From assembly GCA_001510455.1 (NCBI GenBank), contig LFFH01000001.1, positions 1 through 36,074 on the forward strand: 36,074 nucleotides of DNA. The letters run 5' to 3'. The number at the start of each line of letters is the position of its first letter. Position 1 is the first letter of the stretch. A model generated the notes under the pieces. It worked only from the letters and a program-made list of their open reading frames with translations, did no database searches and was not told the origin of the DNA. Source of the stretch: Actinobacteria bacterium casp-actino8 (GTDB lineage Bacteria; Actinomycetota; Acidimicrobiia; Acidimicrobiales; Ilumatobacteraceae). Positions 1,125-33,907 of the stretch are shown here, one piece after another. Both the position numbers and the translations under genes were made by a program.

Positions 1125-1131
1125 GGGCGGA

Positions 1132-1137
1132 ATTCTA
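1132..1137 (-). promoter_or_regulatory. -10 box of gcvH, leaderless geometry
   Basis: TAGAAT on the minus strand, separated by 7 nt from the gcvH ATG (1124). Initiation about 7 nt after a -10 box would put the transcript start on the A of ATG. No convincing -35 is visible. Confidence 0.6.
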
Positions 1138-1156
1138 GTGGAAACGACGGTGCGTT

Positions 1157-1750
1157 TCAGCGGGTGAGACTCCGTCGGATGACGGGCACGTACTGAATTG
1201 CAGTGACGTAGCTGAGCGTGAGACCGATCGGCCCGATGATCCAGGCGGCAACGGTGAAGGCGTCGGCGACGGCGAGCGAGCTCTCCCCCATCACGAATCC
1301 GGGGAAGGTGAACATGAGGATGAAGGTGGCCCACTTGCCGAGATAGGTGACGTCGAAACGTTCCATCCCCGCCAACAGGGTCAACAGGGCGACCGTCCCA
1401 CCGAACACGACCTCTCGCACCAGCACTGCGAGGCAGAACCAGAGAGGTGCCGAGCCGTCGATCATGATCGCAACGATGGCCACCACGAAGAGGAGCCGGT
1501 CGGCCGTCGGATCGAAGATCTTCCCGAATTCACTCACCTGGTCGAAACGGCGCGCCACCCAGCCATCGATCCAATCGGTTGCACCGAGTGCTCCGAGGAG
1601 CCAGGCGGCATAGGCCCGATCGTCCCGACCGAGCAGCAGCCAGAGAAAGAGCGGAAGGCACGACAGTCGAACGAGAGTGATGAAGTTCGGCCAGGTCCAG
1701 ACGTTCCACGGTGGACGATGCGCGTCCGGGACCGACTCCTGTGACTCCAC
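1157..1750 (-). CDS. CDP-alcohol phosphatidyltransferase (PgsA-like)
   Basis: 197 aa integral-membrane enzyme. It carries the full CDP-alcohol phosphatidyltransferase signature D59-x2-D62-G-x2-A-R-x8-G76-x3-D80-x3-D84, seen as DWIDGWVARRF then GKIFDPTAD, with several hydrophobic segments around it. Family members transfer a phosphatidyl group from CDP-diacylglycerol to an alcohol such as glycerol-3-phosphate or inositol. The exact substrate is not clear from sequence; phosphatidylglycerophosphate synthase-like is the most likely reading. The GTG at 1750 was chosen because a TACTCT hexamer sits 6 nt upstream and the longer frame would run into the divergent SDR gene. It shares a 63-bp divergent intergenic region with that gene. 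Confidence 0.9.
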   Translation of the reverse strand: MESQESVPDAHRPPWNVWTWPNFITLVRLSCLPLFLWLLLGRDDRAYAAWLLGALGATDWIDGWVARRFDQVSEFGKIFDPTADRLLFVVAIVAIMIDGSAPLWFCLAVLVREVVFGGTVALLTLLAGMERFDVTYLGKWATFILMFTFPGFVMGESSLAVADAFTVAAWIIGPIGLTLSYVTAIQYVPVIRRSLTR

Positions 1751-1756
1751 ACGACG

Positions 1757-1762
1757 AGAGTA
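1757..1762 (-). promoter_or_regulatory. -10 box of the CDP-alcohol phosphatidyltransferase gene, leaderless geometry
   Basis: TACTCT on the minus strand with exactly 6 nt (CGTCGT) to the GTG start at 1750. No clear -35. Confidence 0.55.
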
Positions 1763-1801
1763 GACCGTGGTCGTCGGTGATCGTCGTCCAGAGAAGCCGT
1801 C

Positions 1802-1807
1802 TAGGGT
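1802..1807 (+). promoter_or_regulatory. -10 box of the SDR gene, leaderless geometry
   Basis: TAGGGT with exactly 6 nt (TCGCTC) to the ATG at 1814. It faces the divergent -10 box at 1757-1762, so the two promoters share about 40 bp. Confidence 0.5.
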
Positions 1808-1813
1808 TCGCTC

Positions 1814-2626
1814 ATGCGGAGCGGTCTTCTGGACGGTCGAGTCGTGGTGGTGACCGGGGGTGGTTCCGGCCTCGGGGAAGCATGTGCCGTTCGCTTGGCC
1901 GAAGACGGTGCCCATGTCGTGGTGGGCGACATCGATGAGGCGGCCGCCGGTCGAGTGGCATCATCGGTCGGGGGTGAAGCCGCGGTGTTCGACGTGGCCG
2001 ACTCGGCGGCTGTCGATGCAGCCGTCGACCGGATCGTGGCTCACCACGGTCGTATCGACGTGATGATCAACAATGCGGGGATCGCTCCCCCATCGTCGCC
2101 CGAGAGAACCCAGATCTCGATCGCCAATCAGATGAAGCGGATGGAAGGTCGGCATCACGAACAGGTCCCCACCGACGCAACGGTCGGTTTGTCGGATGCC
2201 GACTGGGATCGCATGATCCGCGTCCACCTGTACGGAGTGTTCCACGGAACGAGAGCCGCGCTCCGCCACATGACACCAGCGCGATCAGGCTCGGTGATCA
2301 ACCTGTCGTCCATCCTCGGACTTCGCCCGATGGCCGGCGCACCTCATTACGCGGCGGCCAAGGCGGCCATCATCGCATTGTCGAAATCGGTCGCCCAGGA
2401 AGTGGCGGCGTTCGGCGTTCGCGTGAACACCGTGTGTCCCGGTTGGATCGACACACCACTTTTGTCGCCCATGGATCCTCTCGTTCTCGACGCGATTCGC
2501 ATGCAGATCCCGGCTGGGCGCATGGGAGCCCCCCACGAGATCGCCGAAGTCGTTCGCTTCCTTGCCGGACCCGAGTCCTCGTACTGTGTCGGAGAGGTGT
2601 TCGCCGCGTCAGGAGGTTGGGTCTGA
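1814..2626 (+). CDS. Short-chain dehydrogenase/reductase (SDR)
   Basis: 270 aa. Classical SDR: nucleotide-binding TGGGSGLG (14-21), NNAG (86-89), and a catalytic serine in NLSS (about 166) with Y179 and K183 in YAAAK, followed by CPGWIDTPLL and a C-terminal ASGGWV. A roughly 30-residue insertion (about 92-125, with QMKRMEGRHHEQVP) follows NNAG, where most SDRs run straight into the next helix. D39 at the end of beta-2 (VVGDIDE) suggests preference for NAD(H). The substrate cannot be read from sequence. It is followed by a HIT protein with a 1-bp TGATG overlap, so the two are probably co-translated. Confidence 0.9.
   Translation: MRSGLLDGRVVVVTGGGSGLGEACAVRLAEDGAHVVVGDIDEAAAGRVASSVGGEAAVFDVADSAAVDAAVDRIVAHHGRIDVMINNAGIAPPSSPERTQISIANQMKRMEGRHHEQVPTDATVGLSDADWDRMIRVHLYGVFHGTRAALRHMTPARSGSVINLSSILGLRPMAGAPHYAAAKAAIIALSKSVAQEVAAFGVRVNTVCPGWIDTPLLSPMDPLVLDAIRMQIPAGRMGAPHEIAEVVRFLAGPESSYCVGEVFAASGGWV
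2611..2616 (+). promoter_or_regulatory. Shine-Dalgarno of the HIT gene
   Basis: AGGAGG inside the last SDR codons, 9 nt before the ATG at 2626. It supports that start over an ATG further upstream in the same frame. Confidence 0.75.
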
Positions 2627-3045
2627 TGCCCACGGTCTTCACACGAATCATCGACGGGGAGATTCCCGGCACGTTCGTCTGGAAGGACGACCAAGTGGTG
2701 GCCTTCTTGTCGATCAACCCGATCGCGCCCGGACACGTGCTGGTGGTTCCCCGAGCCGAGATCGATCATTGGATCGAGTGCTCACCCGCGCTCTCGCGTC
2801 GGATCTTCGAAGTGGCACACGTCATCGGAAGTGCGCAGCAGGCGGCGTTCGACTGCGAACGCGTCGGACTCGTGATCGCTGGTTACGAGGTTCCGCACAC
2901 GCACGTTCACGTCATCCCGACCGAGGGGATGCATCATCTCTCGTTCGCCAACGCGGCCACCACGGTTTCGCGTGACGACTTGGATTCGTGGGCCGAACGG
3001 ATCAGGGCGGCCTTGCGGGCCGCGGGGCGCTCCGAGGTCGTCTGA
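2626..3045 (+). CDS. HIT-family nucleotide hydrolase/transferase
   Basis: 139 aa. Opens with FTRIIDGEIPGTFVWKDDQ and has PIAPGHVLVVPRAEIDHW, typical of HINT-branch HIT proteins, and the histidine triad H91-T-H93-V-H95-V as HTHVHVIP, where the middle histidine is the nucleophile. Such proteins hydrolyse nucleoside phosphoramidates or dinucleotides, releasing AMP or GMP; the physiological substrate is usually unknown. The ATG at 2626 overlaps the TGA of the SDR gene by one base and has a strong Shine-Dalgarno. It is convergent with the SRAP gene. Confidence 0.93.
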   Translation: MPTVFTRIIDGEIPGTFVWKDDQVVAFLSINPIAPGHVLVVPRAEIDHWIECSPALSRRIFEVAHVIGSAQQAAFDCERVGLVIAGYEVPHTHVHVIPTEGMHHLSFANAATTVSRDDLDSWAERIRAALRAAGRSEVV

Positions 3046-3063
3046 CCGGCACGAGCCGTTTCA

Positions 3064-3078
3064 GGTCGTCAATCGACC
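3064..3078. terminator. Short inverted repeat at the HIT/SRAP convergent junction
   Basis: GGTCG-TCAAT-CGACC, a 5-bp stem with a 5-nt loop that includes the SRAP stop codon (3069-3071). No T-tract follows on either strand. It is a weak candidate on its own; it is listed because every convergent junction in the window has such a hairpin. Confidence 0.25.
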
Positions 3079-3773
3079 GGATCGAGCAAGGATGGGTCGT
3101 TGTTGCGCACGGAATTGACCCGAGTGCTCACGGGACGAAGGGTGATCGAGGTGGGCGGAGCCGAGATCATGAGCGCGGTGAGTTCGGCTCGATCCGAGAT
3201 CGATGGGTCGAGCCATGTCGACCAGTCTCTCTCGTCGAGGATGACGGGCATCCGATCGTGAACCGGAGCGATCAGTTCGTTCGCCTCGGTCGTGAGGACA
3301 CAACACGTGTGGAGCCAGGGTGAGTCGACATCGGATCGCCACGACGACCACAGTCCGGCCACCGCGAGCGGACGGCCATCACGACGAGTGACGTAGACCG
3401 GTTCCTTCGGAGCCTTCGTCGGACGCGGAGCGTCGTAGACGGTCCGCCATTCGTAGAAGCCGTCCATGGGAACGATGCATCGGCGCGACGGGACGAGGTG
3501 GCGGAAAGACGGCTTCTCGAAGACGGTCTCCGATCGGGCGTTCACGAGACGAGCCGATCCGGACGAATCCTTGGCCCACGACGGCACGAGGCCCCACTGG
3601 AAACGGCCGAGGCGCCGGCGCCCTTCTCGATCGACGGCCACCGCCAGAACCTTCGTGGTAGGAGCCACGTTGTGATTGGGGTGGAAGTCGGCGACCTCGT
3701 CAGAGGGCGTCTCGGTTCCGAACAACTGAGCCAGCTCGGCCGGTGGCGTGAGTGAGGTGAAGCGACCGCACAC
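3069..3773 (-). CDS. SRAP-family protein (YedK/HMCES), abasic-site DNA-protein crosslink protein
   Basis: 234 aa. The GTG at 3773 makes the N-terminus (M)CGRFTS, placing the catalytic cysteine at residue 2 as the family requires after Met removal. Other conserved residues are visible: N78 in LVNARSET, E108 in DGFYEW and H172 in PVHDRMPVIL. SRAP proteins form a thiazolidine crosslink with abasic sites in single-stranded DNA, shielding them from strand breakage, and are often linked to the SOS response. An in-frame ATG upstream would bury the cysteine internally and was rejected. A TACGTT hexamer 6 nt before the GTG agrees with this start. I see no clear LexA box. Confidence 0.95.
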   Translation of the reverse strand: MCGRFTSLTPPAELAQLFGTETPSDEVADFHPNHNVAPTTKVLAVAVDREGRRRLGRFQWGLVPSWAKDSSGSARLVNARSETVFEKPSFRHLVPSRRCIVPMDGFYEWRTVYDAPRPTKAPKEPVYVTRRDGRPLAVAGLWSSWRSDVDSPWLHTCCVLTTEANELIAPVHDRMPVILDERDWSTWLDPSISDRAELTALMISAPPTSITLRPVSTRVNSVRNNDPSLLDPVD

Positions 3774-3779
3774 GCTCGC

Positions 3780-3785
3780 AACGTA
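3780..3785 (-). promoter_or_regulatory. -10 box of the SRAP gene, leaderless geometry
   Basis: TACGTT on the minus strand with 6 nt (GCGAGC) to the GTG at 3773. The start codon is independently fixed by the catalytic Cys2, so this is one of the best-anchored examples of the spacing rule. Confidence 0.6.
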
Positions 3786-3799
3786 CAGGGTCGGGGGGC

Positions 3800-3805
3800 T
3801 ACCGT
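3800..3805 (+). promoter_or_regulatory. Possible -10 box of the amidohydrolase pair
   Basis: TACCGT, 23 nt before the ATG at 3829. This would give a short leader containing the Shine-Dalgarno at 3818-3824, unlike the leaderless units nearby. Low certainty: no -35 is visible. Confidence 0.3.
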
Positions 3806-3817
3806 CGGAGTCGATCG

Positions 3818-3824
3818 AAGGAGG
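3818..3824 (+). promoter_or_regulatory. Shine-Dalgarno of the first amidohydrolase gene
   Basis: AAGGAGG, 4 nt before the ATG at 3829, with the purine run continuing one more base. It decides the start against an ATG at 3748 that would overlap the divergent SRAP gene. Confidence 0.75.
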
Positions 3825-3828
3825 GCTC

Positions 3829-5034
3829 ATGTCCACGACCACGTCCGTCACTCCCCATCCCGACCTCGGTTTCGCGGCTTTCGATGCCGACAATCACTAC
3901 TACGAGGCCGAGGACGCGTTCATTCGACACATCCCGGCCGACATGGCGTCGCGATGCATGCAGTGGGCCGAGATCAAGGGCAAGCGTCGCCTGCTCGTCG
4001 GAGGTCGCGTCAATCGCTTCATTCCCAATCCGACCTTCGATCCGGTGTCGAAGCCCGGTGCCCTCGACGACTACTTCCGCGGTCGCGTTTCGGGTGAAGA
4101 CATGCGCAAACTCTTCGGAGAACTCGATCCGATCAGCCCGGCCTACCGGAACCGCGATGCCCGTCTCGCCATCATGGACGAACAAGGTGTCGAGGCCGCC
4201 ATGTTCTTTCCCACGCTCGCCGTCGGGATGGAAGAGTCTTTGAAACACGACGTCCCAGCGCTGTGTGCAGCGTTCCGAGCCTTCAATCGCTGGGTCGACG
4301 AAGACTGGGGTGTGCACTACCAAGATCGCATCTTCGCGGCGCCGTACATCACGCTCGCCGATCCGCAGTGGGCGATCGACGAAGCCGACTGGGCCATCGC
4401 CCACGGCGCACGAGTCGTCGTGATGCGCACGTCGCCGGCGCCGGTTGCCAGTGGTGCGACCCGGTCTCCCGGTGATCCGATCTTCGATCCGTACTGGGCC
4501 CGCCTCGCCGAGGCCGGTGTTTCGGTTGCGTTCCACTCCGGGGACGCCGGATACGGGAGATACATCGACGACTGGGAGCCGACGGGTGAGTTCGAAGCCT
4601 TCCGTCAGTCGCCGATGCGACTCATGACGAGTGACCGAGCACCTTTCGACATGTTCGCAGTGCTGGTCACCCATGGCGTGCTGTCCCGCCACCCGAAACT
4701 CCGTCTGGCGTCGATCGAGGCCGGAGCCGACTGGGTGCCGAATCTCGTGAAGAAGTTCAAGAAGGCGTATTCGGCCCAGCCCTTCCAGTTCGCCAAGGAT
4801 CCGGTCGAACAGTTCCGTGAGCAGGTGTGGGTTGCTCCCTTCTACGAGGACGATCTACGCCTCTTGGCCGACACCATCGGCGTCGAGCGACTCCTCTTCG
4901 GTAGTGACTTCCCTCATGCCGAGGGCCTCGCCGTTCCGACGTCGTTCAAGAACGATCTGGTCGGATTCGCCGACCATGAGATCAAGATGGTCATGCGCGA
5001 CAACGGTTTCGCTTTCCTGGGGGCCACTTCGTGA
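3829..5034 (+). CDS. Amidohydrolase-2 family (ACMSD-like) metal-dependent hydrolase
   Basis: 401 aa. TIM-barrel amidohydrolase-2 features: FDADNHYYE at the N-terminus, where the classical HxH metal motif is reduced to DNH; VAFHSGDAGYG with a barrel histidine; ASIEAGADWVPNLVKKFKKA; and LLFGSDFPHAEGL near the C-terminus with the conserved aspartate. The family includes decarboxylases and hydrolases acting on aromatic or ring-cleavage carboxylates, and such proteins are abundant in Actinobacteria. The substrate is unknown. The next gene, a relative, overlaps by GTGA (5031-5034), which suggests coupled translation and possibly a two-subunit enzyme. Confidence 0.88.
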   Translation: MSTTTSVTPHPDLGFAAFDADNHYYEAEDAFIRHIPADMASRCMQWAEIKGKRRLLVGGRVNRFIPNPTFDPVSKPGALDDYFRGRVSGEDMRKLFGELDPISPAYRNRDARLAIMDEQGVEAAMFFPTLAVGMEESLKHDVPALCAAFRAFNRWVDEDWGVHYQDRIFAAPYITLADPQWAIDEADWAIAHGARVVVMRTSPAPVASGATRSPGDPIFDPYWARLAEAGVSVAFHSGDAGYGRYIDDWEPTGEFEAFRQSPMRLMTSDRAPFDMFAVLVTHGVLSRHPKLRLASIEAGADWVPNLVKKFKKAYSAQPFQFAKDPVEQFREQVWVAPFYEDDLRLLADTIGVERLLFGSDFPHAEGLAVPTSFKNDLVGFADHEIKMVMRDNGFAFLGATS

Positions 5035-5918
5035 CACGAGACGACTCGTCGAACCGGGATTTCTCGTCAATTGGCATCATCGAGACGATGATGGGCTTTC
5101 CCGATCCGGACCCACGACGGCTGTACGAGTTCTTCCGCGGCAACATCAAGGAGCCGTCGAGCAAGGAAACGATGTTCCCCGTCGAGTACTTGTTCAAACA
5201 CAACGTTCCCGGAGCGCTCGAACAGGATCTCGACCCGGTCGAAGTCGCCCTGTCGACCATGGATCACTTCGGAATCGAACGATCGATGATCGGAGTGGAG
5301 GGTGAACCCGGATCACGAGCGATTCGTGAGTTTCCTGATCGATTCATCGCTTCGTGCAGTGCCGACGCCAACAACGGCGTCGATGAGGTCCGAAAGATTC
5401 GGCGACTCCATGAAGAGGTGGGCCTTCGTGCGGTCGGGACCTTTCCGGCCGGTTGTACCCCTCAGGTGCCGATCGATCACGCCAGGTGGTACCCGATCTA
5501 TTCGGTGTGCGCCGAGCTCGGTGTTCCGATCTTCATCTGTGCCGGCATCCCGGGCCCTCGCGTGCCGAGCATGTGTCAGCACGTCGAGATGCTCGACATC
5601 GTGTGCTACGACTTTCCCGAGCTCACCATCGTCACTCGTCACGGATGTCAACCCTGGACCGAACTGGCCGTCAAGTTGATGCTCAAGTGGCCGAACTTGC
5701 ACTATTCGACTTCGGCCTTCGCTCCGAAGCACTACGACCCGCGGATCATCGACTACGCGAATTCACGTGGTGCCGACCGCATCATCTACGCCGGTTACTG
5801 GCCGATGGGCCTGACCTACGAACGCATCTTCGGCGACCTGCCTCACGTGCCCTTCAAGGACGACGTCTGGCCGAAGTTCCTGCGCGAGAACGCTCTACGG
5901 GTTCTCGGACTGAACTGA
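5031..5918 (+). CDS. Amidohydrolase-family protein lacking the canonical metal-site aspartate
   Basis: 295 aa from the GTG at 5031, overlapping the preceding stop by 4 bp. Barrel-like segments resemble amidohydrolase-2 proteins: EVGLRAVGTFPAG, GVPIFICAGIPGPRVP, LTIVTRHGCQPW, LMLKWPNLHYSTSAF. Where relatives carry a GSDxPH loop with the catalytic aspartate, this protein has IIYAGYWPMGLTYERIF, with no Asp. The N-terminus also lacks an HxH or DxH motif. I recall YAGYxPMG loops in an actinobacterial subfamily of unknown function, so this is not obviously a decayed gene. It may be a non-catalytic partner of the upstream enzyme or use a different chemistry. The function is not known. Confidence 0.8.
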   Translation: MTRDDSSNRDFSSIGIIETMMGFPDPDPRRLYEFFRGNIKEPSSKETMFPVEYLFKHNVPGALEQDLDPVEVALSTMDHFGIERSMIGVEGEPGSRAIREFPDRFIASCSADANNGVDEVRKIRRLHEEVGLRAVGTFPAGCTPQVPIDHARWYPIYSVCAELGVPIFICAGIPGPRVPSMCQHVEMLDIVCYDFPELTIVTRHGCQPWTELAVKLMLKWPNLHYSTSAFAPKHYDPRIIDYANSRGADRIIYAGYWPMGLTYERIFGDLPHVPFKDDVWPKFLRENALRVLGLN

Positions 5919-5923
5919 GGGTG

Positions 5924-5941
5924 TCACGAACCGCTTCGTGA
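5924..5941. terminator. Hairpin at the amidohydrolase/thioesterase convergent junction
   Basis: TCACGAA-CCGC-TTCGTGA, a perfect 7-bp stem with a tetraloop, 5 bp after the plus-strand stop and overlapping the minus-strand thioesterase stop (5924-5926). There is no T-tract on either side. Being symmetric, it could act on both transcripts. Confidence 0.4.
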
Positions 5942-6400
5942 TCGAACGAGGAAGTAGGTCAGCGATGCGCTGGCGATCGTCTTCCCCGTGCTCGCTCCGA
6001 CGATTTCGGCCTCGCAGAACACCAGTGATCGTCCCCGTTTGACGACCCAACCCTCGGCGATGGCTGTCTCTCCGACGAGCGCAGAGAGATATCGAACGTG
6101 CATGTCGACCGTGGAGTATCCGGCTTCGGGTTCGAGGCCGGTTCCGATCGCCGGAACCAAGACCACGTCGAGCAGAGTCGCAATGGCCCCACCGTGCACG
6201 ATGCCCATCGGTTGTTCGAGTTCGGGCCGGAACGGCATCGACATGCGGCAGTAGTCCTGTCGAACCTCGTCGACGACGATTCCGACGAGCTGTGGGAAGT
6301 AGACCCGATCCCATTTGCCGAACTTCATCCATCGCTCGCGTGTGGTGGCATCGACGGGAGCGAACAGTCGAGAACGATCGGTTTCCTGCGTGGGGTCCAT
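5924..6400 (-). CDS. PaaI-like hotdog-fold acyl-CoA thioesterase
   Basis: 158 aa from the ATG at 6400. The hotdog thioesterase signature MGIVHGGAIATLLD (about 65-78) is followed by YSTVDMHVRYLS, TAIAEGWVVKRGRSLVFCEAEI and a strand ending in ASASLTYFLV, the pattern of the PaaI/YbgC-type 4HBT superfamily. These enzymes hydrolyse acyl- or aryl-CoA thioesters; the specific substrate cannot be inferred. The neighbouring divergent desaturase is only weak context for a lipid role. Unlike most unit-heading genes here, it has no TANNNT box 6-8 nt upstream; only a weak GAGAG precedes it. The frame stays open upstream, but the similarity begins only here. Confidence 0.88.
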   Translation of the reverse strand: MDPTQETDRSRLFAPVDATTRERWMKFGKWDRVYFPQLVGIVVDEVRQDYCRMSMPFRPELEQPMGIVHGGAIATLLDVVLVPAIGTGLEPEAGYSTVDMHVRYLSALVGETAIAEGWVVKRGRSLVFCEAEIVGASTGKTIASASLTYFLVRSRSGS

Positions 6401-6439
6401 GGCGTACTCTCGCACATTCGGCGATTCGGACCACCGTGC

Positions 6440-6445
6440 TAGTTT
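6440..6445 (+). promoter_or_regulatory. -10 box of the desaturase gene, leaderless geometry
   Basis: TAGTTT with exactly 6 nt (TCGATC) to the ATG at 6452. It lies in the 51-bp divergent gap to the thioesterase gene. Confidence 0.55.
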
Positions 6446-6451
6446 TCGATC

Positions 6452-7180
6452 ATGGTGTCGATCATCACTGCAGTCGTCGCCGGTTTCGCGACCACGATGC
6501 TGGCGAATCTGATCACGACCGTGTACCTGCACCGGAGTCTCTCGCACCGCGCGCTCGTTCTCGCGAGTCCCGTTCGTGGCGTGTGCCGTGCGCTGGTGTG
6601 GATCGCGACGGGAATTCGTCCTCGGCAATGGGTCGCCGTGCACCGGAAGCATCACGCTTACACCGATGTCGACGGTGATCCTCACTCCCCCGTCCTGCTC
6701 GGATGGTGGCGGGTCCAGTGGACCAACGTCGCGTTGTACCGACGAGCCGCTCGTGAACCGGGTCTCGTCGCGAAGTACGCGCGGGATCTCCCGGCCGATC
6801 GCTGGGACCGTTGGTTCTTCGATCGATCCCTCGTGGGTCTGGCCATCGGCGTCGCCCTGTTGATCGCGACGATCGGACCCTGGGCTGGCCTGGCAGCGGC
6901 GGTGATTCACACCAGTCTGTATCTCGCCACCTCGGCCGCGGTGAACGGTATGGGACATCACTTCGGCCGTCGCCCCTATCCGAACGGTGCCGGCAACCTG
7001 CAGTGGCTGGCATTCCTGACCGCTGGTGAAGGTCTGCACAACAATCACCATGCCGCACCGACGTCGGCGCGACTCTCGCACCGGTGGTTCGAGATCGACT
7101 TCGGTTGGTGGGCGATTCGCCTTCTCGCGTGGTTCCGCCTGGCTCGGGTCCGGCTGGTCGGTCGAACGTCCCGAGTCTGA
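6452..7180 (+). CDS. Membrane fatty-acid desaturase (delta-9 acyl-CoA/acyl-lipid type)
   Basis: 242 aa. It has the three histidine boxes of membrane di-iron desaturases: HRSLSH (27-32), HRKHH (64-68) and HNNHH (196-200), plus GMGHHFG (about 167-172) where delta-9 enzymes usually have a conserved NSxxH. Hydrophobic segments lie at about 4-24, 125-160 and 215-230. The enzyme introduces a double bond into saturated acyl chains using O2 and an electron donor. At 242 aa it is compact compared with the roughly 300 or more residues of many relatives, lacking long terminal extensions and any fused cytochrome b5. A small unknown protein follows after 11 nt and may share its transcript. Confidence 0.92.
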   Translation: MVSIITAVVAGFATTMLANLITTVYLHRSLSHRALVLASPVRGVCRALVWIATGIRPRQWVAVHRKHHAYTDVDGDPHSPVLLGWWRVQWTNVALYRRAAREPGLVAKYARDLPADRWDRWFFDRSLVGLAIGVALLIATIGPWAGLAAAVIHTSLYLATSAAVNGMGHHFGRRPYPNGAGNLQWLAFLTAGEGLHNNHHAAPTSARLSHRWFEIDFGWWAIRLLAWFRLARVRLVGRTSRV

Positions 7181-7191
7181 TCGGCACCCAC

Positions 7192-7587
7192 ATGCAGATC
7201 GTTTCCGCGCTCTTCGTCGAGAACTTCCAATTGCGTCAAGCGCCGGGGCCGAGCACCCGACTCGACATCACCGGCGCCATGTTCTCCATGGCTGCTCCGA
7301 GCCCGGCGCCCGTCACGATCGACCCACATCTCGTCGCTCTCGTTCACTGTCCGCCCGACGATGCTGGTTCCGGAGTTTTCGAAGTGGTGTTCCGACGAGG
7401 ACTCGACGAAGAAAGCGAGCAGGTGGCGCGAAACGTGAGTCCCTTCACGGTCGAACCGGGGAAGTTCACCTATCGACTGGTCAAGGGTGAACTGTCGTTC
7501 GACGAGTACGGAACCGTGTACGCCCATTGCCGGGTCGACCGCGGTCCGTGGACCATCGTCCCGTTCACTCTTTTGCCACCGGCGTGA
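7192..7587 (+). CDS. Small conserved-type protein, possibly DUF6941
   Basis: 131 aa from the ATG at 7192. The N-terminus MQIVSALFVENFQLR, then RLDITGAMF and a later mixed segment PGKFTYRLVKGELSFDEYG ending in WTIVPFTLLPP, look like the small beta-rich DUF6941 type as I remember it, but the match is from memory. There are no signal peptide, membrane segment or catalytic motifs. It begins 11 nt after the desaturase stop, with no Shine-Dalgarno and no nearby -10 box, so it is probably translated from the desaturase mRNA. The function is unknown. Confidence 0.7.
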   Translation: MQIVSALFVENFQLRQAPGPSTRLDITGAMFSMAAPSPAPVTIDPHLVALVHCPPDDAGSGVFEVVFRRGLDEESEQVARNVSPFTVEPGKFTYRLVKGELSFDEYGTVYAHCRVDRGPWTIVPFTLLPPA

Positions 7588-7612
7588 AACGGTTCGGCCG
7601 CGGCCGACGAAG

Positions 7613-7618
7613 TACAGT
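7613..7618 (+). promoter_or_regulatory. -10 box of the transketolase gene, leaderless geometry
   Basis: TACAGT with 7 nt to the GTG at 7626. It supports the GTG as the true start; an upstream in-frame ATG lies inside the previous gene. Confidence 0.55.
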
Positions 7619-7625
7619 CGAAATC

Positions 7626-9590
7626 GTGACCGACCTGCCCCGCCTCTCCCCGGAGATCGATCGGGCCGCCGTCTCGCTCATTCGTGGTCTGGCCATGGAT
7701 GCTCCCCTCGCGGCCAAGAGCGGCCACCAGGGAACGGCGATGGCGCTCGCTCCACTTGGCCACGTTCTGTTCTCGCGTGTCCTGAAGGCCGATCCGGCCG
7801 ATCCCGAATGGTTCGACCGCGACCGATTCGTTCTGTCGGCCGGGCATGCCTCGATCCTCCAGTACGCGCTTCTTTTCCTGCAGGGTTCGGGCGTCGAAAT
7901 GGACGACCTCCGATCGTTCCGCCAGTGGGGCTCCCGGACACCTGGTCACCCCGAACGAGGTCACACGCCCGGAGTCGAAGTGACGACGGGCCCACTCGGT
8001 CAAGGGTTGGCCAACGCCGTCGGACTCGCATTGGCCGAACGTCATTTGCGCGCTCGCCTCGGGGCCGAACTCGTCGACCACCACACGTGGGTGATCGCCG
8101 GTGACGGGTGTCTGATGGAAGGTGTCAGTCATGAAGCGGCGTCGCTCGCCGGCCACCAGCGGCTCGGCCGTCTGGTGGTGATCTTCGACGACAACCACAT
8201 CACCATCGACGGTCGCACCGATCTCACGTGTTCCGACGACGTGGCGGCTCGCTTCGCGTCGTATGGCTGGTCGGTCATGCGCCTCGGCGAGATCGCCGAC
8301 GATCTCGATGCTCTCGAATCGGCTCTCGTCACCGCTCGTGACGCCGCCGACGATCGTCCGAAGCTCTTGATCTTGCGGACTCGGGTCGGTAGCCCCTCCC
8401 CTGACTGGACCGACCGACACGAGGCGCACGGCAATCCGTTCACTGCCGATCACGTCGCGCGCACCAAGGCGACCATGGGGATTCCCGACGAACCGTTCTG
8501 GGCACCGAACGACGTGGTCGACGCGTGTCGTTCGCAGGCTCGATCCGGATCCGCTCGTCGTTCCGCTTGGCAGTCTCGCTACGAACGCTCCGAACGAAAG
8601 GCTCTGTTCGATCGCCTGCTCGATTCCCGAGACGCAGTGGCGAACGCTCAGCTTCCGTCGTTCGACGCGGGTGAACAGGTGGCCACACGTGTGGCGGTCC
8701 AGAAGGTGTTCGATTCCCTGCTCGAGGTGTGTCCCGAACTGGTCGCCGGAGCCGCCGACCTCACCGGAAACACCGGCGCGAAGTTGACCGGTCAGGACGG
8801 TATGTCGGCCGAAACCCCCGAGGGTCGACAGCTGTACTACGGCGTTCGCGAGCACGCGATGGGCTCGATCATGGTCGGCCTGGCCTCACATGGTGGTGTG
8901 CTTCCCGTTGGTGGGACGTTCTTCGTCTTCTTCGATTACATGAAGCCTCCGGTTCGCTTGGCGGCTCTCTCGGGAGTCAGATGCATCTTCGTGTTCAGTC
9001 ACGATTCGGTCGGGGTCGGTGAGGACGGCCCGACTCACCAGCCCATCGAGCATCTCGCGGCACTGCGGGCGATCCCCGACCTCCAGGTGATCCGTCCGGC
9101 CGATGCGAACGAGACCGCGGCCGCCGTGCGGGCCGCAGTTCTCCATGACGGGCCGACCGCTCTCGTTCTCAGTCGCCAGAACCTCCCGGTCGTGAGCGAC
9201 GGTACGGCGGTCGATCGGGGTGCCGGAATCGTGCGCGACGGCCACGATGTCGTCGTCGTGGCAACGGGAAGTGAAGTGGCCGTGGCCCTCGAAGCCGCTG
9301 AACTGCTGGCCAATGAGGGAATCTCGTGTCGGGTGGTATCGATGCCCTCCTGGGACCGGTTCGAAGCATTCCGCCACCGTGACCGGGCAGGGGCCGAACT
9401 CGTCCTTCCGCCGAGTGTCCCCACGGTGTCGATCGAGGCCGGTTCGACTCTCGGTTGGGCCAAATACGCCGATGTCACTCTCGGAATCGATCGTTTCGGG
9501 GCCAGCGCGCCGGGTGGCGTCGCCTTGCGAGAGTTGGGAATGACCTCGGATGCCGTGGTGGCGGCCGCACGTGAGCTGATCGGTGGCTGA
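7626..9590 (+). CDS. tkt: Transketolase
   Basis: 654 aa from the GTG at 7626, the usual transketolase length. Thiamine-diphosphate motif GDG (159-161) running to DDNHITIDG with N190; TPGHPERGHTPGVEVTTGPLGQG (about 105-127) in the active site; catalytic glutamate E409 in YGVREHAMGSI; and GVGEDGPTHQPIEHLAALR in the pyrimidine domain. It transfers two-carbon ketol units between sugar phosphates in the pentose phosphate pathway. The transaldolase gene follows with an 8-bp overlap, so both non-oxidative enzymes are made together. No zwf, opcA or gnd is adjacent. Confidence 0.97.
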   Translation: MTDLPRLSPEIDRAAVSLIRGLAMDAPLAAKSGHQGTAMALAPLGHVLFSRVLKADPADPEWFDRDRFVLSAGHASILQYALLFLQGSGVEMDDLRSFRQWGSRTPGHPERGHTPGVEVTTGPLGQGLANAVGLALAERHLRARLGAELVDHHTWVIAGDGCLMEGVSHEAASLAGHQRLGRLVVIFDDNHITIDGRTDLTCSDDVAARFASYGWSVMRLGEIADDLDALESALVTARDAADDRPKLLILRTRVGSPSPDWTDRHEAHGNPFTADHVARTKATMGIPDEPFWAPNDVVDACRSQARSGSARRSAWQSRYERSERKALFDRLLDSRDAVANAQLPSFDAGEQVATRVAVQKVFDSLLEVCPELVAGAADLTGNTGAKLTGQDGMSAETPEGRQLYYGVREHAMGSIMVGLASHGGVLPVGGTFFVFFDYMKPPVRLAALSGVRCIFVFSHDSVGVGEDGPTHQPIEHLAALRAIPDLQVIRPADANETAAAVRAAVLHDGPTALVLSRQNLPVVSDGTAVDRGAGIVRDGHDVVVVATGSEVAVALEAAELLANEGISCRVVSMPSWDRFEAFRHRDRAGAELVLPPSVPTVSIEAGSTLGWAKYADVTLGIDRFGASAPGGVALRELGMTSDAVVAAARELIGG

Positions 9591-10701
9591 CGTCGTGTCC
9601 CGACGACTGACACAGCTCTTCGACGAATGTGGCCAGAGTCCGTGGCTCGACAACCTGAAGCGAGACCTCCTGGAGTCGGGAGAACTCGCCCGCCTCCGAG
9701 ATTCCGGAGTCCGTGGGCTCACGTCCAACCCGACGATCTTCCAGAAGGCCATCCAGGGCTCGGACTCCTACGACTCACAACTGCGCGAACTGCTGCGCGT
9801 CGGGTCGTCGATCGACGAGTGTTACTGGCGTCTCGTCCTCACCGACATTCTCGGCGCGCTCGACGTGTTCGAACCTCTTCATGTGGCGAGCCGAGGACTC
9901 GATGGTTACGTGAGCCTCGAGGTCGACCCGCATCTCTCGGGAGATGCCGACGCCACGTTGGCGAGCGCCGAACGAATCTGGAACGACGTCGGGCGCTCCA
10001 ACTTGATGGTCAAGATTCCCGGAACGAAGGCTGGACTACCGGCCGTTCGAGCGGCCATCGCCCGCGGGGTGAACGTGAACGTCACTCTGATCTTCGGACT
10101 CGATCGTTATCAGGCCGTGATGGAGTCCTACATCTCCGGACTCGAGGATCGGTTGGCCGCCGGATCTCCCATCGACTCCATCGCCAGCGTGGCATCTTTC
10201 TTCGTGAGCCGTGTCGACACCGAGATCGACGCCCGTCTGGTGGCGATCGGAACACCGGAAGCCCTCGACCTCCAAGGTCGTTCGGCCGTGGCTCAGGCGC
10301 AGCTGGCCTACGACGCCTTTCGCCGAACTTTCGCCGGTGATCGCTGGCAGCGATTGGCCGATGCAGGAGCCGCAGTACAACGCCCACTGTGGGCGTCGAC
10401 GAGCACCAAGAATCCGTCGTATCCCGACACCTTGTACGTCGACAGTCTCATCGGCCCCGACACCGTGAACACCTTGCCCGACGCGACCCTCGAGGCCTTC
10501 GCCGACCACGGGACACCGACGCGAACTGTCGACAGTGATGTCGCGCTGGCTCATCGAGTCTGGACGGGTCTCCGTGAGGTCGGTGTCGACGTCGATGACG
10601 TGGCACTCAAACTCGAGAGCGAGGGTCTCGCATCGTTCGTCGCCAGCCACGACGACCTACTCGACGCCTTGCGACGCAAGGCCGAGTCCTGGTCGATCTG
10701 A
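9583..10701 (+). CDS. tal: Transaldolase
   Basis: 372 aa, the length of the actinobacterial transaldolase type. Conserved LTSNPTIFQKAI (46-57), Schiff-base lysine K144 in LMVKIPGTKAG, NVNVTLIFGLDRY, SVASFFVSRVD, and ASTSTKNPSYPDTLYV. It transfers a dihydroxyacetone unit between sedoheptulose-7-phosphate and glyceraldehyde-3-phosphate. The GTG start at 9583 overlaps the end of tkt by 8 bp. The gene ends one base before the stop of the convergent 69-aa gene, so the two genes abut. Confidence 0.97.
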   Translation: MADVVSRRLTQLFDECGQSPWLDNLKRDLLESGELARLRDSGVRGLTSNPTIFQKAIQGSDSYDSQLRELLRVGSSIDECYWRLVLTDILGALDVFEPLHVASRGLDGYVSLEVDPHLSGDADATLASAERIWNDVGRSNLMVKIPGTKAGLPAVRAAIARGVNVNVTLIFGLDRYQAVMESYISGLEDRLAAGSPIDSIASVASFFVSRVDTEIDARLVAIGTPEALDLQGRSAVAQAQLAYDAFRRTFAGDRWQRLADAGAAVQRPLWASTSTKNPSYPDTLYVDSLIGPDTVNTLPDATLEAFADHGTPTRTVDSDVALAHRVWTGLREVGVDVDDVALKLESEGLASFVASHDDLLDALRRKAESWSI

Positions 10702-10911
10702 TCAGTCCGGTTGTGGACCGCCGGCGAGTAGTCGACTCGCTTTCTCGAGAGCCCGTCGAGCCTGGGTGATGGCTTTGTCGACCGCCGGTCGAGCTTCTCC
10801 GTTCCGTTGAGCTTCCCGGAGGACGTCGAACGAGATCTCGTCGAGTGTTTCGCTGAGTCGATCGATGTCGGACGCGATCTCGGCGAGTCGTTCACGTGTC
10901 GAGTCGTTCAT
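10702..10911 (-). CDS. Small helical (coiled-coil-like) protein downstream of glcF
   Basis: 69 aa. The ATG at 10911 overlaps the glcF stop as ATGA (10908-10911). The sequence is almost entirely amphipathic helix: RLAEIASDIDRLSETLDE with heptad-like hydrophobic spacing, then VDKAITQARRALEKASRLL and a short GGPQPD tail. It has no cysteines, signal peptide or known motif. The strict overlap and its position in the glcF unit suggest it is real and translated. I do not recognise the family. A role as a small partner or assembly factor is conceivable but not shown. Confidence 0.65.
   Translation of the reverse strand: MNDSTRERLAEIASDIDRLSETLDEISFDVLREAQRNGEARPAVDKAITQARRALEKASRLLAGGPQPD
10724..10744 (+). 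terminator. Candidate terminator of tkt-tal
   Basis: GCGAGT-AGTCG-ACTCGC, a 6-bp stem with a 5-nt loop followed by TTTC, about 22 nt after the tal stop. It lies inside the opposing 69-aa gene. It is the only convergent-junction hairpin here with a short T-run. Confidence 0.4.
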
Positions 10912-12068: not shown

Positions 12069-12074
12069 TCCTCC

Positions 12075-12080
12075 AAGGTA
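12075..12080 (-). promoter_or_regulatory. -10 box of glcF, leaderless geometry
   Basis: TACCTT with 6 nt (GGAGGA) to the GTG at 12068. The spacer resembles a Shine-Dalgarno but directly abuts the GTG, too close to act as one for that codon. It would be about 15 nt from the alternative GTG at 12053. Confidence 0.5.
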
Positions 12081-12116
12081 CTCGCCTCGTCCCGCTCCCC
12101 GTCGCCTGGCTCGTCC

Positions 12117-12122
12117 TACACT
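12117..12122 (+). promoter_or_regulatory. -10 box of the MDMPI-family gene, leaderless geometry
   Basis: TACACT with 6 nt (TCGGAC) to the ATG at 12129. It is divergent from the glcF promoter, 36 bp away. Confidence 0.55.
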
Positions 12123-12128
12123 TCGGAC

Positions 12129-12884: not shown

Positions 12885-12902
12885 CCTCGATCCGCCGACG
12901 GT

Positions 12903-12918
12903 TTCAGCGTTCGCTGAA
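12903..12918. terminator. Palindromic hairpin at the MDMPI/glcE convergent junction
   Basis: TTCAGCGTTCGCTGAA, a 6-bp stem with a GTTC loop (7 bp with TT if fully paired), 18 nt after the plus-strand stop and overlapping the glcE stop (12904-12906). On the plus strand it is followed by TCGTTTG, a poor T-tract. Confidence 0.4.
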
Positions 12919-13821: not shown

Positions 13822-13827
13822 GTCGGC

Positions 13828-17843: not shown

Positions 17844-17846
17844 CGA

Positions 17847-20892: not shown

Positions 20893-20898
20893 AGGCTA
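20893..20898 (-). promoter_or_regulatory. Possible -10 box of hisS
   Basis: TAGCCT with 8 nt to the GTG at 20884, giving a 5' leader of 0-2 nt. The spacing is slightly longer than in the other cases, so confidence is lower. Confidence 0.4.
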
Positions 20899-23677: not shown

Positions 23678-23683
23678 AGACTA
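23678..23683 (-). promoter_or_regulatory. -10 box of apt-rel, overlapping the secF stop codon
   Basis: TAGTCT with 6 nt (GGTCTC) to the apt ATG at 23671. Its first three bases are the TAG stop codon of secF (23681-23683), so one trinucleotide would serve as both stop codon and promoter core. Confidence 0.5.
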
Positions 23684-26852: not shown

Positions 26853-26882
26853 GAGTTCGGGTGGTCTTCGACGGACCGCTGG

Positions 26883-28999: not shown

Positions 29000-29002
29000 G
29001 AT

Positions 29003-30599: not shown

Positions 30600-31120
30600 G
30601 AGCCGACCACCGAATTGCGAACACGAGCTGCCAACGGGGACATGGCCAGATGGCACAGAGCGATGGCTGCCGCATCGGCAGCGTCGGCCGGAGACGGTGG
30701 TCGGGGAAGACGCAGCCGCATCTGGACCATTTTTTGGATCTGAACCTTCGATGCCGAGCCGTCACCGGCGACCGAGGATTTCACTTGGGTCGGGGTGTAC
30801 ATGGCGACATCGAGTCCGCGTCGAGCTGCGCTGGCGAGAACCACGCCACTGGCCTGACCGACGCTCATCGCCGTTCGCACGTTGGCCTGGAAGAAGACCC
30901 GCTCGACGGCGACCGAAGTCGGCGCGAAGTCGTCGATCAAGGCCTCGATGTCGTCCTGGAGCGCTCCGAGACGCCGGGCGAGATCGTCACCCACCGGGGT
31001 GCGGATCACGCCGAGTGACACGATCTCGTCGCGACCACCAGGACCCCGGGCCAGCACGGCGTAACCACAGCGGGTCAAACCAGGATCGACACCGAGGACA
31101 CGCTCGGACTGATCGAACAT
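30596..31120 (-). CDS. ruvC: Crossover junction endodeoxyribonuclease RuvC
   Basis: 174 aa. Catalytic acidic residues are visible as VLGVDPGLTRCGYAV (D12), VAVERVFF (Glu) and the C-terminal PADAADAAAIALCH (Asp pair), with TAMSVGQASGVVL and YTPTQVKSSVAGDGSASK between. It resolves Holliday junctions. It heads ruvC-ruvA-ruvB and probably queA-tgt. A TAGAAT box lies 7 nt before its ATG. Confidence 0.97.
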   Translation of the reverse strand: MFDQSERVLGVDPGLTRCGYAVLARGPGGRDEIVSLGVIRTPVGDDLARRLGALQDDIEALIDDFAPTSVAVERVFFQANVRTAMSVGQASGVVLASAARRGLDVAMYTPTQVKSSVAGDGSASKVQIQKMVQMRLRLPRPPSPADAADAAAIALCHLAMSPLAARVRNSVVGS

Positions 31121-31127
31121 GCGTACG

Positions 31128-31133
31128 ATTCTA
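31128..31133 (-). promoter_or_regulatory. -10 box of ruvC, leaderless geometry
   Basis: TAGAAT with 7 nt (CGTACGC) to the ATG at 31120. It is the same hexamer and spacing as for gcvH. No LexA-like palindrome overlaps it that I can recognise. Confidence 0.6.
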
Positions 31134-31157
31134 CCCGACCCTGGGGCCGGGTCGGGC

Positions 31158-31610
31158 TCATTCGATCCGACGGAGTGCGTCGGCGAGCTCGTCGACCGAG
31201 CGGTAGGTCAGACCCGCCAAGGCCCGGTGGACGTACCGAACGACTCCTTCGGTGTCGACGATGACGACGCTTCGACGCACGAACCCGAGGGGGCCGAGTA
31301 CCCCGAACGCTGCCCCCACCTTCTTGTCGACGTCAGCGAGCAACGGGAACGCGAATCCGTGATGCTCCGAGAACTTCTCGTGACTGTCGACGTCCTGGGC
31401 CGAGATCCCCAGAACCACGGCGTCGAGTTCGGCGAAACGACCGAGTTCGTCGTTGTAGGCGTTGAGTTGTCGTGTGCACACGGGCGTTTCGTCTCCCGGA
31501 TAGAAGACGAGAACGACGTTCCGTCCACGGTGCTCCGACAAGCGGTGCGAACGACCACCGGTTCCGGGGAGTTCGAAGTCGGGAGCGATGTCCCCCACCG
31601 AGAGCGCCAT
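31158..31610 (-). CDS. Peroxiredoxin, Bcp/PrxQ-like, single cysteine
   Basis: 150 aa thioredoxin-fold peroxiredoxin: [14 protein letters not shown] at the N-terminus, [18 protein letters not shown] with the peroxidatic cysteine C45, then [27 protein letters not shown] and [18 protein letters not shown]. Bcp/PrxQ proteins usually carry a resolving cysteine five residues after the first; here the sequence is CTRQLNAY, and C45 is the only cysteine in the protein. It should therefore act as a 1-Cys enzyme using an external thiol, plausibly mycothiol, mycoredoxin or thioredoxin. It overlaps the yebC stop by one base. Confidence 0.93.
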
Positions 31611-32359
31611 CAGACGGCCGCCGCTTCCAGGAGTTCGTCACTGATGTCGAAGTTCGCGAAGACGTCCTGGACGTCGTCGTTGTCCTCGAGAGCCTCCATG
31701 ATCCGAAGGATCTTCTTGGCAGTGTCGGCGTCGGACACCTCGATGGTCGTGGACGAGACCATGGTGGAGTCGGCCGAGATGACGACGAGACCGGCCGACT
31801 CGAGGGCCGACTTCACATCGAAGACGATGCTCGGTTCGCACATGACGCGCCAGGCGTCTCCGTCGGCGACAACATCGTCGGCCCCGGCTTCCAGGGCCGA
31901 GAGCATGACCTCGTCCTCGGCGGCACCACTCGCGATCATGAGGACTCCACGGCGAGAGAACTGCCAGCCCACTGCGCCGGGCTCGGCCATCGAACCACCG
32001 AGTTTCGAAAAGATGTTCCGAATGTCGGCGCCGGTTCGATTGCGATTGTCGGTGAGGGTGTCGACCATGAGGGCGACCCCACCCGGGGCGTAACCCTCGT
32101 ACATGATCGACTCGTAGGAGTCGCCGTCGAGTTGCCCCGATCCCCTCTTGATGGCCCGATCGATCGCGTCGTTGGTCATCTGAGCGGCCTTGGCCTTTTG
32201 TACCACCGTGCGAAGGGTCGCGTTCGTCGACGGGTCACCACCACCTTCGCGTGATGCGACTTCCAGTTGGCGGGCGATCTTGGCGAAGAGCTTGCCGCGT
32301 GCCTTGTCGGCGGCTCCCTTCTTGTGCTTGATGGTCGCCCATTTGGAATGGCCGGACAT
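31610..32359 (-). CDS. YebC/PmpR-family DNA-binding or translation-associated regulator
   Basis: 249 aa, the standard family length. Begins [20 protein letters not shown], then [54 protein letters not shown] and an acidic C-terminal half, all typical of YebC. The family was long annotated as transcriptional regulators; recent work assigns some members a role in translating proline-rich stretches. Its position ahead of ruvC is widely conserved. A GAGGTGA Shine-Dalgarno containing the pdxT stop precedes its ATG. Confidence 0.95.
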
Positions 32360-32362
32360 GGT

Positions 32363-32369
32363 TCACCTC
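32363..32369 (-). promoter_or_regulatory. Shine-Dalgarno of the yebC-family gene
   Basis: GAGGTGA on the minus strand, 3 nt before the ATG at 32359. It includes part of the pdxT stop codon (32368-32370). Confidence 0.6.
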
Positions 32370-32988
32370 ATCGAGTGGGAAGGGACGTGGAAGAAGTATC
32401 GCGAACGTGTGATCGAGTCTGCGACAGCAGTTCGACGAAAAGACGATGGACCCGAGTGTCGCCGGTCAACTCGGGATGGAAGGAACACGCGAGTCGATTC
32501 CGATGGCGAACCAGAACCGGATGATCGCCGAAGCGAGCGAGAACGGCGACTTCGGGGTCGACAGAGACGATCATCGGGGCACGTATGAACACGGCGTGGA
32601 ACGGATCGGAGGATCCGACGATGTCGAGATCGGTCTCGAAGGAATCGATCTGACGTCCGTAGGCGTTTCGACGCACCGTCATGGGCAGGGCGTTCAGATG
32701 GATCTGATCGTCACGGCCGTCTTCGATGGCCGATGCCATGAGGATCATCCCGGCGCAGGTGCCAAAGACACCGAGTCCGGAATCGAGAGCCGAACGCAAA
32801 GGCGCGACGAGACCGGAGGACTGGAGGAGATTACTCATCGTGGTGCTTTCCCCACCGGGAATGACCAAACCGTCGAGATCGTCGAGCTCGTCGGGGCGAC
32901 GAACGAGAACCGGCTCGACGTCGCAGAGACTCAGTGCCTCACGATGAGAGGCGAAGGCCCCTTGAAGAGCGAGAACTCCGACTCGCAC
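32368..32988 (-). CDS. pdxT: Pyridoxal 5'-phosphate synthase glutaminase subunit PdxT
   Basis: 206 aa from the GTG at 32988. Class I glutaminase: VGVLALQGAFASH, VIPGGESTTM (oxyanion strand), nucleophile C78 in GVFGTCAGMIL, and the His/Glu pair H171 and E173 in CSFHPELTGD. It releases ammonia from glutamine and channels it to PdxS. It follows pdxS by 21 nt. The C-terminal tail (about 190-206) extends slightly beyond the catalytic fold. Confidence 0.96.
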   Translation of the reverse strand: MRVGVLALQGAFASHREALSLCDVEPVLVRRPDELDDLDGLVIPGGESTTMSNLLQSSGLVAPLRSALDSGLGVFGTCAGMILMASAIEDGRDDQIHLNALPMTVRRNAYGRQIDSFETDLDIVGSSDPFHAVFIRAPMIVSVDPEVAVLARFGDHPVLVRHRNRLACSFHPELTGDTRVHRLFVELLSQTRSHVRDTSSTSLPTR

Positions 32989-33009
32989 CTGGCGGCCTCC
33001 CGGACGAAA

Positions 33010-33894
33010 TCACCAACCACGCTCCGCGTACTTCTGGTTGATCTCGTCCATCCCGATTCCGGTCATGGGCGCACCCAGATCCCGACTCACCTTGACGAGG
33101 ATGTCGGGATTCTCGAAGTGAGTGGTGGCCTCGACGATGGCGCGGGCTCTCTTGGACGGATTGTCGCTCTTGAAGATCCCCGAACCGACGAACACCGCTT
33201 CGGCGCCGAGTTGCATCGCGAGTGCCGCATCGGCTGGCGTTGCCAGACCTCCGGCACAAAAGATCGGGACGGGAAGACGGCCGGTTTCGGCGACCTCCTG
33301 CACGAGGGGAAGCGGAGCCTGCAACTTCTTGGCCCAGTCGAAGAGTTCGGCGGAGTCGGCGGTTCCGATCCGACGGATGTCGCCGAGGATCGATCGAAGA
33401 TGACGAACAGCCTCCACGACGTTGCCGGTACCGGCTTCACCCTTCGAACGAATCATCGCTGCACCCTCGGACACGCGACGCAATGCCTCGCCGAGATTCG
33501 TCGCACCGCAGACGAACGGGACCGTGAAACCGAACTTGTCGATGTGGTGGGCTTCATCGGCCGGAGTGAGCACTTCGCTCTCGTCGATGAAATCGACGCC
33601 GAGCGCCTGGAGAATCTGTGCCTCGACGAAGTGACCGATACGCGCTTTGGCCATCACCGGGATCGAAACGGCTCGTTGGATCCCCTCGATCATGTCGGGG
33701 TCGCTCATGCGAGCGACTCCCCCGTCGCGTCGGATGTCGGCCGGAACTCGTTCGAGGGCCATCACGGCGCAGGCCCCGGCGTCTTCGGCGATCTTGGCCT
33801 GTTCGGGGGTGACGACGTCCATGATCACCCCGCCTTTCAGCATCTCGGCGAGACCGCGCTTGACCGGGAACGAACCCGTCGAGGAGGAAGTCAT
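33010..33894 (-). CDS. pdxS: Pyridoxal 5'-phosphate synthase subunit PdxS
   Basis: 294 aa from the ATG at 33894. The highly conserved PdxS sequence is evident: [50 protein letters not shown] with the Schiff-base lysine K83, [32 protein letters not shown] and FVGSGIFKS. It condenses ribose-5-phosphate, glyceraldehyde-3-phosphate and ammonia to PLP. An upstream ATG in the frame (33930) was rejected because a TAGCAT box lies 7 nt before 33894 and family similarity begins near this point. Confidence 0.97.
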
Positions 33895-33901
33895 GAGCTG
33901 A

Positions 33902-33907
33902 ATGCTA
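33902..33907 (-). promoter_or_regulatory. -10 box of pdxS, leaderless geometry
   Basis: TAGCAT with 7 nt (TCAGCTC) to the ATG at 33894, in the 19-bp gap after the DUF3048 gene. Confidence 0.55.

Follow-up and report, generated by a model that had tools for sequence, protein, structure and literature searches.

TANNNT boxes beside start codons as putative leaderless promoters in Ilumatobacteraceae-type Acidimicrobiia

Why should one short hexamer stand, again and again, at nearly the same distance from the start codons of unrelated genes? The question is raised by contig LFFH01000001.1 of Actinobacteria bacterium casp-actino8 (assembly GCA_001510455.1; Ilumatobacteraceae, Acidimicrobiia), of which positions 1 to 36,074 (36,074 bases, 63% GC) form the window analysed here. 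A sequence-only reading of this DNA had listed twelve genes with a TA(G/C)NNT hexamer ending 6 to 8 nt before the start codon, and had taken the hexamers for promoter elements of leaderless transcripts. Re-read base by base, all twelve boxes lie at the genes and spacers claimed (Table 1). They are very probably -10 elements belonging to promoters of the housekeeping sigma factor, with transcription beginning at the start codon and the mRNA therefore leaderless. RNA polymerase would recognize TANNNT, no -35 element being detectable; transcription would begin about 7 nt past the box, at the purine of the ATG or GTG and usually beside a pyrimidine at -1; and the ribosome would enter the leaderless mRNA at its 5'-terminal ATG or GTG. 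The remaining genes that head a transcription unit, together with internal genes, more often have Shine-Dalgarno (SD) cores or overlap the preceding gene.

Boxes in the window and in related genomes

Forty genes of the window were curated. Twenty of these were searched against Pfam; the rest are named by family resemblance. A unit head was defined by geometry only, as a gene with a divergent neighbour or a gap of at least 20 nt, all other genes being internal. This gives 14 heads and 25 internal genes, the edge gene htpX (no box) being left out. TANNNT lies at -12 to -14 of 10 of the 14 heads and of only two of the 25 internal genes, apt and pdxS (Fisher p = 7.9e-5, curated starts). The earlier figure of 12 boxed genes among about 15 heads thus holds for the boxes and not for the heads, since apt (gap of 9 nt) and pdxS (gap of 19 nt) are internal by geometry; they were not promoted to heads because using the presence of a promoter as a criterion would be circular. 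Similarly, the three boxless heads named at the outset, the first amidohydrolase, the thioesterase and yajC, do lack a box, and pdxT, with a gap of 21 nt and an SD-like core, has to be added to them. For nine of the 12 boxed genes (not SDR, MDMPI and apt) the best Pfam stretch starts within the first 20 residues, and the SRAP match starts at residue 1 of the protein read from the boxed start.

The box is almost absent elsewhere. It precedes two of the 2248 non-start ATG or GTG triplets on both strands of the window, a rate lower than the roughly 2% first estimated for chance. Of these two triplets, one shares two bases with the SRAP start and the other opens a 7-codon open reading frame (ORF). 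The box therefore marks starts, not ATG and GTG in general.

Stretches from related genomes stand in for the window's own genome, the main one being a close relative, G004 (RelA 80% identical). Genes were called there with a home-made program that relies on codon statistics, the type of start codon and gene overlaps and is blind to upstream signals. Since this caller misplaced several starts in the window itself (phosphatidyltransferase, SDR, desaturase/thioesterase), curated starts were used for the window. In the relatives, any ATG or GTG up to 30 codons from the called start was considered, TANNNT was sought at -12 to -14, and the expectation was taken from ten control distances; genes at stretch ends and genes with no ATG or GTG near the called start were left out. 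The scan proposed with the original observation, TANNNT by distance to the start codon at heads and at internal genes, was run in this way and found the enrichment, leaving the interpretation standing. In the first 400 kb of G004, 88 of 217 heads are boxed, against 7.5 in the control. Fresh stretches gave 49/173 in G004 (control 5.9), 41/113 in G009 (5.5) and 51/112 in G006 (6.2); E. coli gave 5 of 54 heads against 7.8. Over the three relatives, 28-46% of heads are boxed, or 26-42% after controls, so that the "consistent rule" of the sequence-only reading was too strong a term. These percentages are probably too low, given that with blind starts 7 of 16 window heads are boxed, against 10 of 14 with curated starts. 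As in the window, the preference is for heads: with any start allowed, the excess in G004 amounts to 0.37 of the heads and 0.11 of the internal genes.

Twelve more genomes picked for long contigs were sampled over 100 kb each, namely G016 from the family loci and eleven of 60 phylum genomes. The excess at heads was 0.27 in G016, 0.29 in G036, 0.16 in G058, 0.14 in G028 and 0.12 in G051, and lay between -0.04 and 0.06 in the other seven (G043, G071, G061, G073, G047, G031 and G032). The level is therefore high in the relatives, and the habit is patchy across the phylum as sampled. In the first G004 sample, a count independent of gene calls found an excess of 98 +- 11 sites, equal to 26% of the genes called, and the fresh samples gave 58 in G004 (16%), 41 in G009 (23%) and 56 in G006 (29%); E. 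coli gave -13 +- 14. By the same count G058 gave -3 +- 5, so that its excess at heads is not borne out, and G051 gave 21 +- 5, above its excess at heads. Single 100-kb samples are therefore rough.

Table 1. Candidate -10 boxes of the window and the palindrome at the ruvC start
Feature	Coordinates	Strand	Start codon, spacer (nt) and remarks
TAGAAT, gcvH	1132..1137	-	start 1124, spacer 7
TACTCT, CDP-alcohol phosphatidyltransferase (pgsA-like)	1757..1762	-	GTG 1750, spacer 6
TAGGGT, SDR	1802..1807	+	ATG 1814, spacer 6
TACGTT, SRAP peptidase	3780..3785	-	GTG 3773, spacer 6
TAGTTT, fatty-acid desaturase	6440..6445	+	ATG 6452, spacer 6
TACAGT, transketolase (tkt)	7613..7618	+	GTG 7626, spacer 7
TACCTT, glcF-like gene	12075..12080	-	GTG 12068, spacer 6
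TACACT, MDMPI-domain gene	12117..12122	+	ATG 12129, spacer 6
TAGCCT, hisS	20893..20898	-	GTG 20884, spacer 8
TAGTCT, apt	23678..23683	-	ATG 23671, spacer 6; TAG = secF stop codon (23681-23683)
TAGAAT, ruvC	31128..31133	-	ATG 31120, spacer 7
TAGCAT, pdxS	33902..33907	-	ATG 33894, spacer 7
LexA/SOS-like palindrome over the ruvC start codon, immediately following the -10 box	31113..31128	-	1 mismatch to TCGAACNNNNGTTCGA

What the signal is and what it is not

The distance between box and start codon is sharply limited. Among the 217 G004 heads, boxes were counted 7 times at -14, 34 times at -13, 47 times at -12, never at -11 and twice at -10, and spacer 5 (-11) is almost empty in the fresh samples as well (0/173, 0/113 and 1/112). 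This near-absence is expected if transcription, starting 7 nt past the box, has to begin no later than the first base of the codon. The hexamer and the codon are specific too. At blind starts alone, G004 has 58 TANNNT against 3.0 expected. The triplet that follows the box there is ATG (37 against 2.9) or GTG (47 against 4.0), not TTG (2 against 1.0) or CTG (0 against 2.5), and four further triplets are at or under background; this preference was counted with -12 to -14 pooled only. The third base, G or C in all 12 boxes of the window, had been described as always so; in the relatives it is a preference (80/89, 45/49, 33/41 and 39/51, that is 76-92%), which in G004 exceeds composition (p = 5e-7 against an assumed 67% G+C).

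Upstream regions of heads are likely to be more A/T-rich than coding DNA, and one could imagine that TANNNT arises there by chance or through this composition. Nevertheless, no comparable rise or peak is seen for hexamers that match TANNNT in composition or differ from it by one letter (ATNNNT 4 against 5.4, TTNNNA 7 against 3.6, TNANNT 6 against 4.2), and the conservation described below refutes this explanation, whose probability we put at next to nothing.

Another possibility is that the signal comes from the choice of starts. A TAG at spacer 6 stands in frame, where it would close an open reading frame, so that stops near called starts could masquerade as boxes, or starts could have been chosen to fit; indeed, apt and pdxS had been called heads despite their gaps. 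TAG-type boxes are raised in G004 (32 against 1.4), and TAC-type boxes are raised as well (20 against 0.8), TGANNT (1 against 1.6) and TAGNNG (0 against 1.0) being not; the explanation by in-frame stops therefore fails. The peak persists with TAC alone and with spacer-7 sites alone. Moreover, the blind starts used no upstream signal, the gene-call-free count agrees with them, and E. coli has no excess. Such an artefact is scarcely credible.

Two properties of the heads that carry a box (led heads) bear on the step at which the box would act. In G004, SD-like cores are found at one of the 88 led heads, against 40 of the 129 other heads and 55 of the 127 other internal genes, and they are also scarce at led heads of the fresh samples (3/49, 2/41, 0/51). 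The base at -1 is a pyrimidine at 77 of 88 led heads and at 76 of 129 other heads (p = 4e-6). The fixed distance to the start codon and the rare coincidence with SD cores would also suit a non-SD signal that recruits the ribosome from within a leader, TANNNT then being no promoter at all. However, a signal for translation would be expected at internal genes as well, and in the window the box is concentrated at heads. The sharp cut-off at spacer 6 and the association with the -1 pyrimidine also argue against a ribosome signal, and TANNNT is the -10 consensus mapped in M. tuberculosis, according to the parts of that study consulted (PMC3898074). We consider this explanation very improbable.

The promoter could be real and still leave a leader of 1 to 5 nt at spacers 7 and 8, only the spacer-6 genes being strictly leaderless. 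The spacer does vary from 6 to 8 even among orthologues, hisS for example. On the other hand, starts favour purines beside pyrimidines, as far as the M. tuberculosis study was seen (PMC3898074), and at spacer 7 the ATG or GTG follows a C or T in 28 of 34 G004 cases, which makes the purine of the codon the better start. Short leaders of this kind are unlikely, though less so than the other alternatives.

A -35 element was looked for and rejected: TTGACA-like sequences (at least 4 of 6 bases) precede 14 of 89 led heads where shuffled sequence has them at 10.3%; two other sets, with 3/52 and 5/58, lie below the shuffled level. Over bases 1-20000, a generic sigma-70 scan gave 2 matches against 2.0 expected; it requires a -35 element and so sees just one box. 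In the window there was no tRNA, and no Rfam family at the gathering threshold.

Several observations weigh against the reading as leaderless promoters. The second G004 sample is weaker than the first, at heads as in the gene-call-free count (16% against 26%), and the gene caller misplaced some starts. In the fresh samples the preference for a pyrimidine at -1 is weaker (37/49 led against 82/124 other heads, 29/41 against 43/72, 38/51 against 33/61), though in the same direction, and in low-GC relatives TTG is somewhat raised after the box (7 against 1.7). The thioesterase start, divergent from that of the desaturase (6400-6451), has neither a TANNNT within 60 nt nor an SD core. The SRAP box is missing in G004, G016, G017 and G019, and 20 of the 47 apt orthologues have none at the nearest start. 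Finally, an RNA start at the codon, the identity of the sigma factor and leaderless translation are inferred from what the sequence shows, namely box position, hexamer and codon specificity, preference for heads, scarcity of SD cores and conservation.

Conservation gene by gene, and two overlapping arrangements

At orthologues of the window's genes the box was sought at -12 to -14 of the nearest start, or, where "any" is stated, of any start within 15 codons. The counts are descriptive, orthologues not being independent. From those of hisS, gcvH, tkt, pdxS, SRAP, phosphatidyltransferase, SDR and desaturase we left out alignments starting after residue 30, identical start regions and one pdxS locus with no upstream DNA. 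Among hisS orthologues the box is kept at all 72 distinct start regions (two identical ones dropped), with spacers of 6, 7 or 8 and at loci ranging from 48% to 72% GC; it is this conservation that refutes chance or A/T-rich upstream regions. The ruvC box is present in 43 of 43 orthologues, 12-14 nt before the start codon. For gcvH, 17 of 25 orthologues are boxed, and 16 of 17 among those from G001-G020; for pdxS 19 of 25; for tkt 18 of 29 at the nearest start (20 with any); for SRAP 14 of 22, all 22 aligning from residue 1; and for the desaturase both of two. The phosphatidyltransferase has the box in 11 of 17 at the nearest start (15 with any) and SDR in 5 of 10 (8 with any). With the box allowed at -15 to -10 of the nearest start, glcF gave 5 of 6 and apt 27 of 47. 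MDMPI gave 2 of 8 at the nearest start, the start being uncertain in most of them. The gcvH, tkt and pdxS misses are mostly in the six more distant genomes included, or are paralogues or pieces, as are four of the eight SRAP misses.

Two side observations concern these records. In G020, pdxS consists of two abutting pieces (L264 and L265; residues 4-176 and 178-294), perhaps through a frameshift in the assembly or in the gene. Public records of metagenome-assembled genomes titled Bifidobacterium breve (L010, L053, L060, L068, L073 and L080) encode a RelA 65-78% identical to that of the window, and their titles are probably wrong.

In two places the boxes overlap other elements. Among the 40 curated genes secF alone stops with TAG, the other 39 ending in TGA, and this TAG forms the first half of the apt box TAGTCT. 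In the first G004 sample, 4 of 11 stops are TAG where the gap is 9-11 nt, against 14 of 171 for the other gaps between -30 and 60 (p = 0.0145). In fresh stretches TAG stops make up 7 of 23 at gaps of 9-11 nt, against 29 of 352 elsewhere (p = 0.0033), five of the seven cases again being from G004; there, the sixth base is T after TAG or TAA in 7 of 9 and after TGA in none of 14 (p = 1.5e-4). The overlap suggests that the promoter of the next gene can drive the choice of stop codon, and that operon calls based on distance only overlook internal promoters. A limited look at the open literature, partly seen, met no prior account of a stop codon doubling as a -10 box, which does not imply its absence from print.

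The second overlap is at ruvC, where a palindrome directly after the box holds the start codon. It lies in the same register in 43 of 43 orthologues, with 1-3 mismatches of 12 (best match within 120 nt); 300 nt upstream of ruvC, the best match has 4-6 mismatches in 38 of 42. The window has many palindromes of this kind with at most 2 mismatches (14 against 5.3 expected), and the weight of the ruvC case therefore lies in its conservation. We regard it as a putative LexA-like operator, of the type TCGAAC-N4-GTTCGA, conserved at the promoter.

These two arrangements incline us, by a small degree, to think that Ilumatobacteraceae-type Acidimicrobiia pack leaderless promoters into their coding layout: a TAG stop would be selected as half of the next -10 box at gaps of 9-11 nt, and at ruvC the start codon would be fused with a -10 box and a LexA operator within about 25 bp, the fusion being kept across the family. 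If so, apparent operons would hold many hidden internal leaderless promoters.

A further arrangement was seen once in the window: a TAACGT box precedes a 7-codon ORF (ATG 15679; 15656-15692, minus strand) whose TGA overlaps the ATG of orf15258 (ATGA). It resembles the "coupled" leaderless small ORFs of mycobacteria, as these appear in the parts of PMC4633059 consulted. Leaderless upstream ORFs as a general class were rejected, two of the 129 non-led heads of G004 having one, against 2.0 by control.

Comparison with known systems

TANNNT-marked leaderless genes are already known in Actinobacteria, and the boxes described here appear to extend that kind; the comparison with relatives suggests that they are retained gene by gene. 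The literature cited below was seen in part, and what we say of it is limited accordingly. Zheng et al. (2011; PMC3160421) recognized TANNNT about 12 bp before the start as the -10 box of leaderless genes in Actinobacteria and Deinococcus-Thermus, with TA-led genes averaging 19.2% in Actinobacteria (range 2.3-29.8%). The gene-call-free excess in our three relatives, 16-29% of called genes, is inside this range. The string "Acidimicrob" does not occur in the main text of that paper, and we found no RNA 5'-end mapping and no leaderless or promoter study of Acidimicrobiia in the open literature, judged by titles (one paper by passages).

In Deinococcus, a TANNNT beside the ORF drives leaderless expression, tested by experiment according to the abstract (PMC12340547), and up to about 60% of the genes of Deinococcus deserti are leaderless (PMC9031893). 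This is another phylum, and the main text of the former study has 0 occurrences of "stop codon", so that an overlap of box and stop is not discussed there under that name.

The putative ruvC operator has a counterpart in Streptomyces venezuelae, where ruvC is among the LexA targets, with a tCGAAC-N4-GNNCGa operator (PMC9380542). There the ruvC box starts 23 bp upstream of the predicted start, whereas here the palindrome sits on the start codon. The lexA gene of M. tuberculosis (PMC2897130) is a leaderless SOS gene, as ruvC is read to be here.

The closest parallel is with mycobacteria, and the boxes are best read as leaderless promoters like theirs. About a quarter of the transcripts of M. tuberculosis and M. 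smegmatis are leaderless (PMC3898074, PMC4633059, PMC6448022). In M. tuberculosis, transcription preferably starts at a purine, the base at -1 is most often C and there is no -35 motif (PMC3898074); leaderless starts in mycobacterial reporters need ATG or GTG (PMC4633059). TANNNT, the lack of a conserved -35 element, the purine start and the use of ATG or GTG, not TTG or CTG, at the 5' end would be shared by the two systems. They differ in that the mycobacterial starts were mapped by RNA and ours are read from DNA, and in the weakly raised TTG of the low-GC relatives. The present finding would carry a habit well described in mycobacteria over to a group represented here almost exclusively by metagenome assemblies; in such genomes, conservation gene by gene offers a practical rule by which start codons can be corrected and promoters located.

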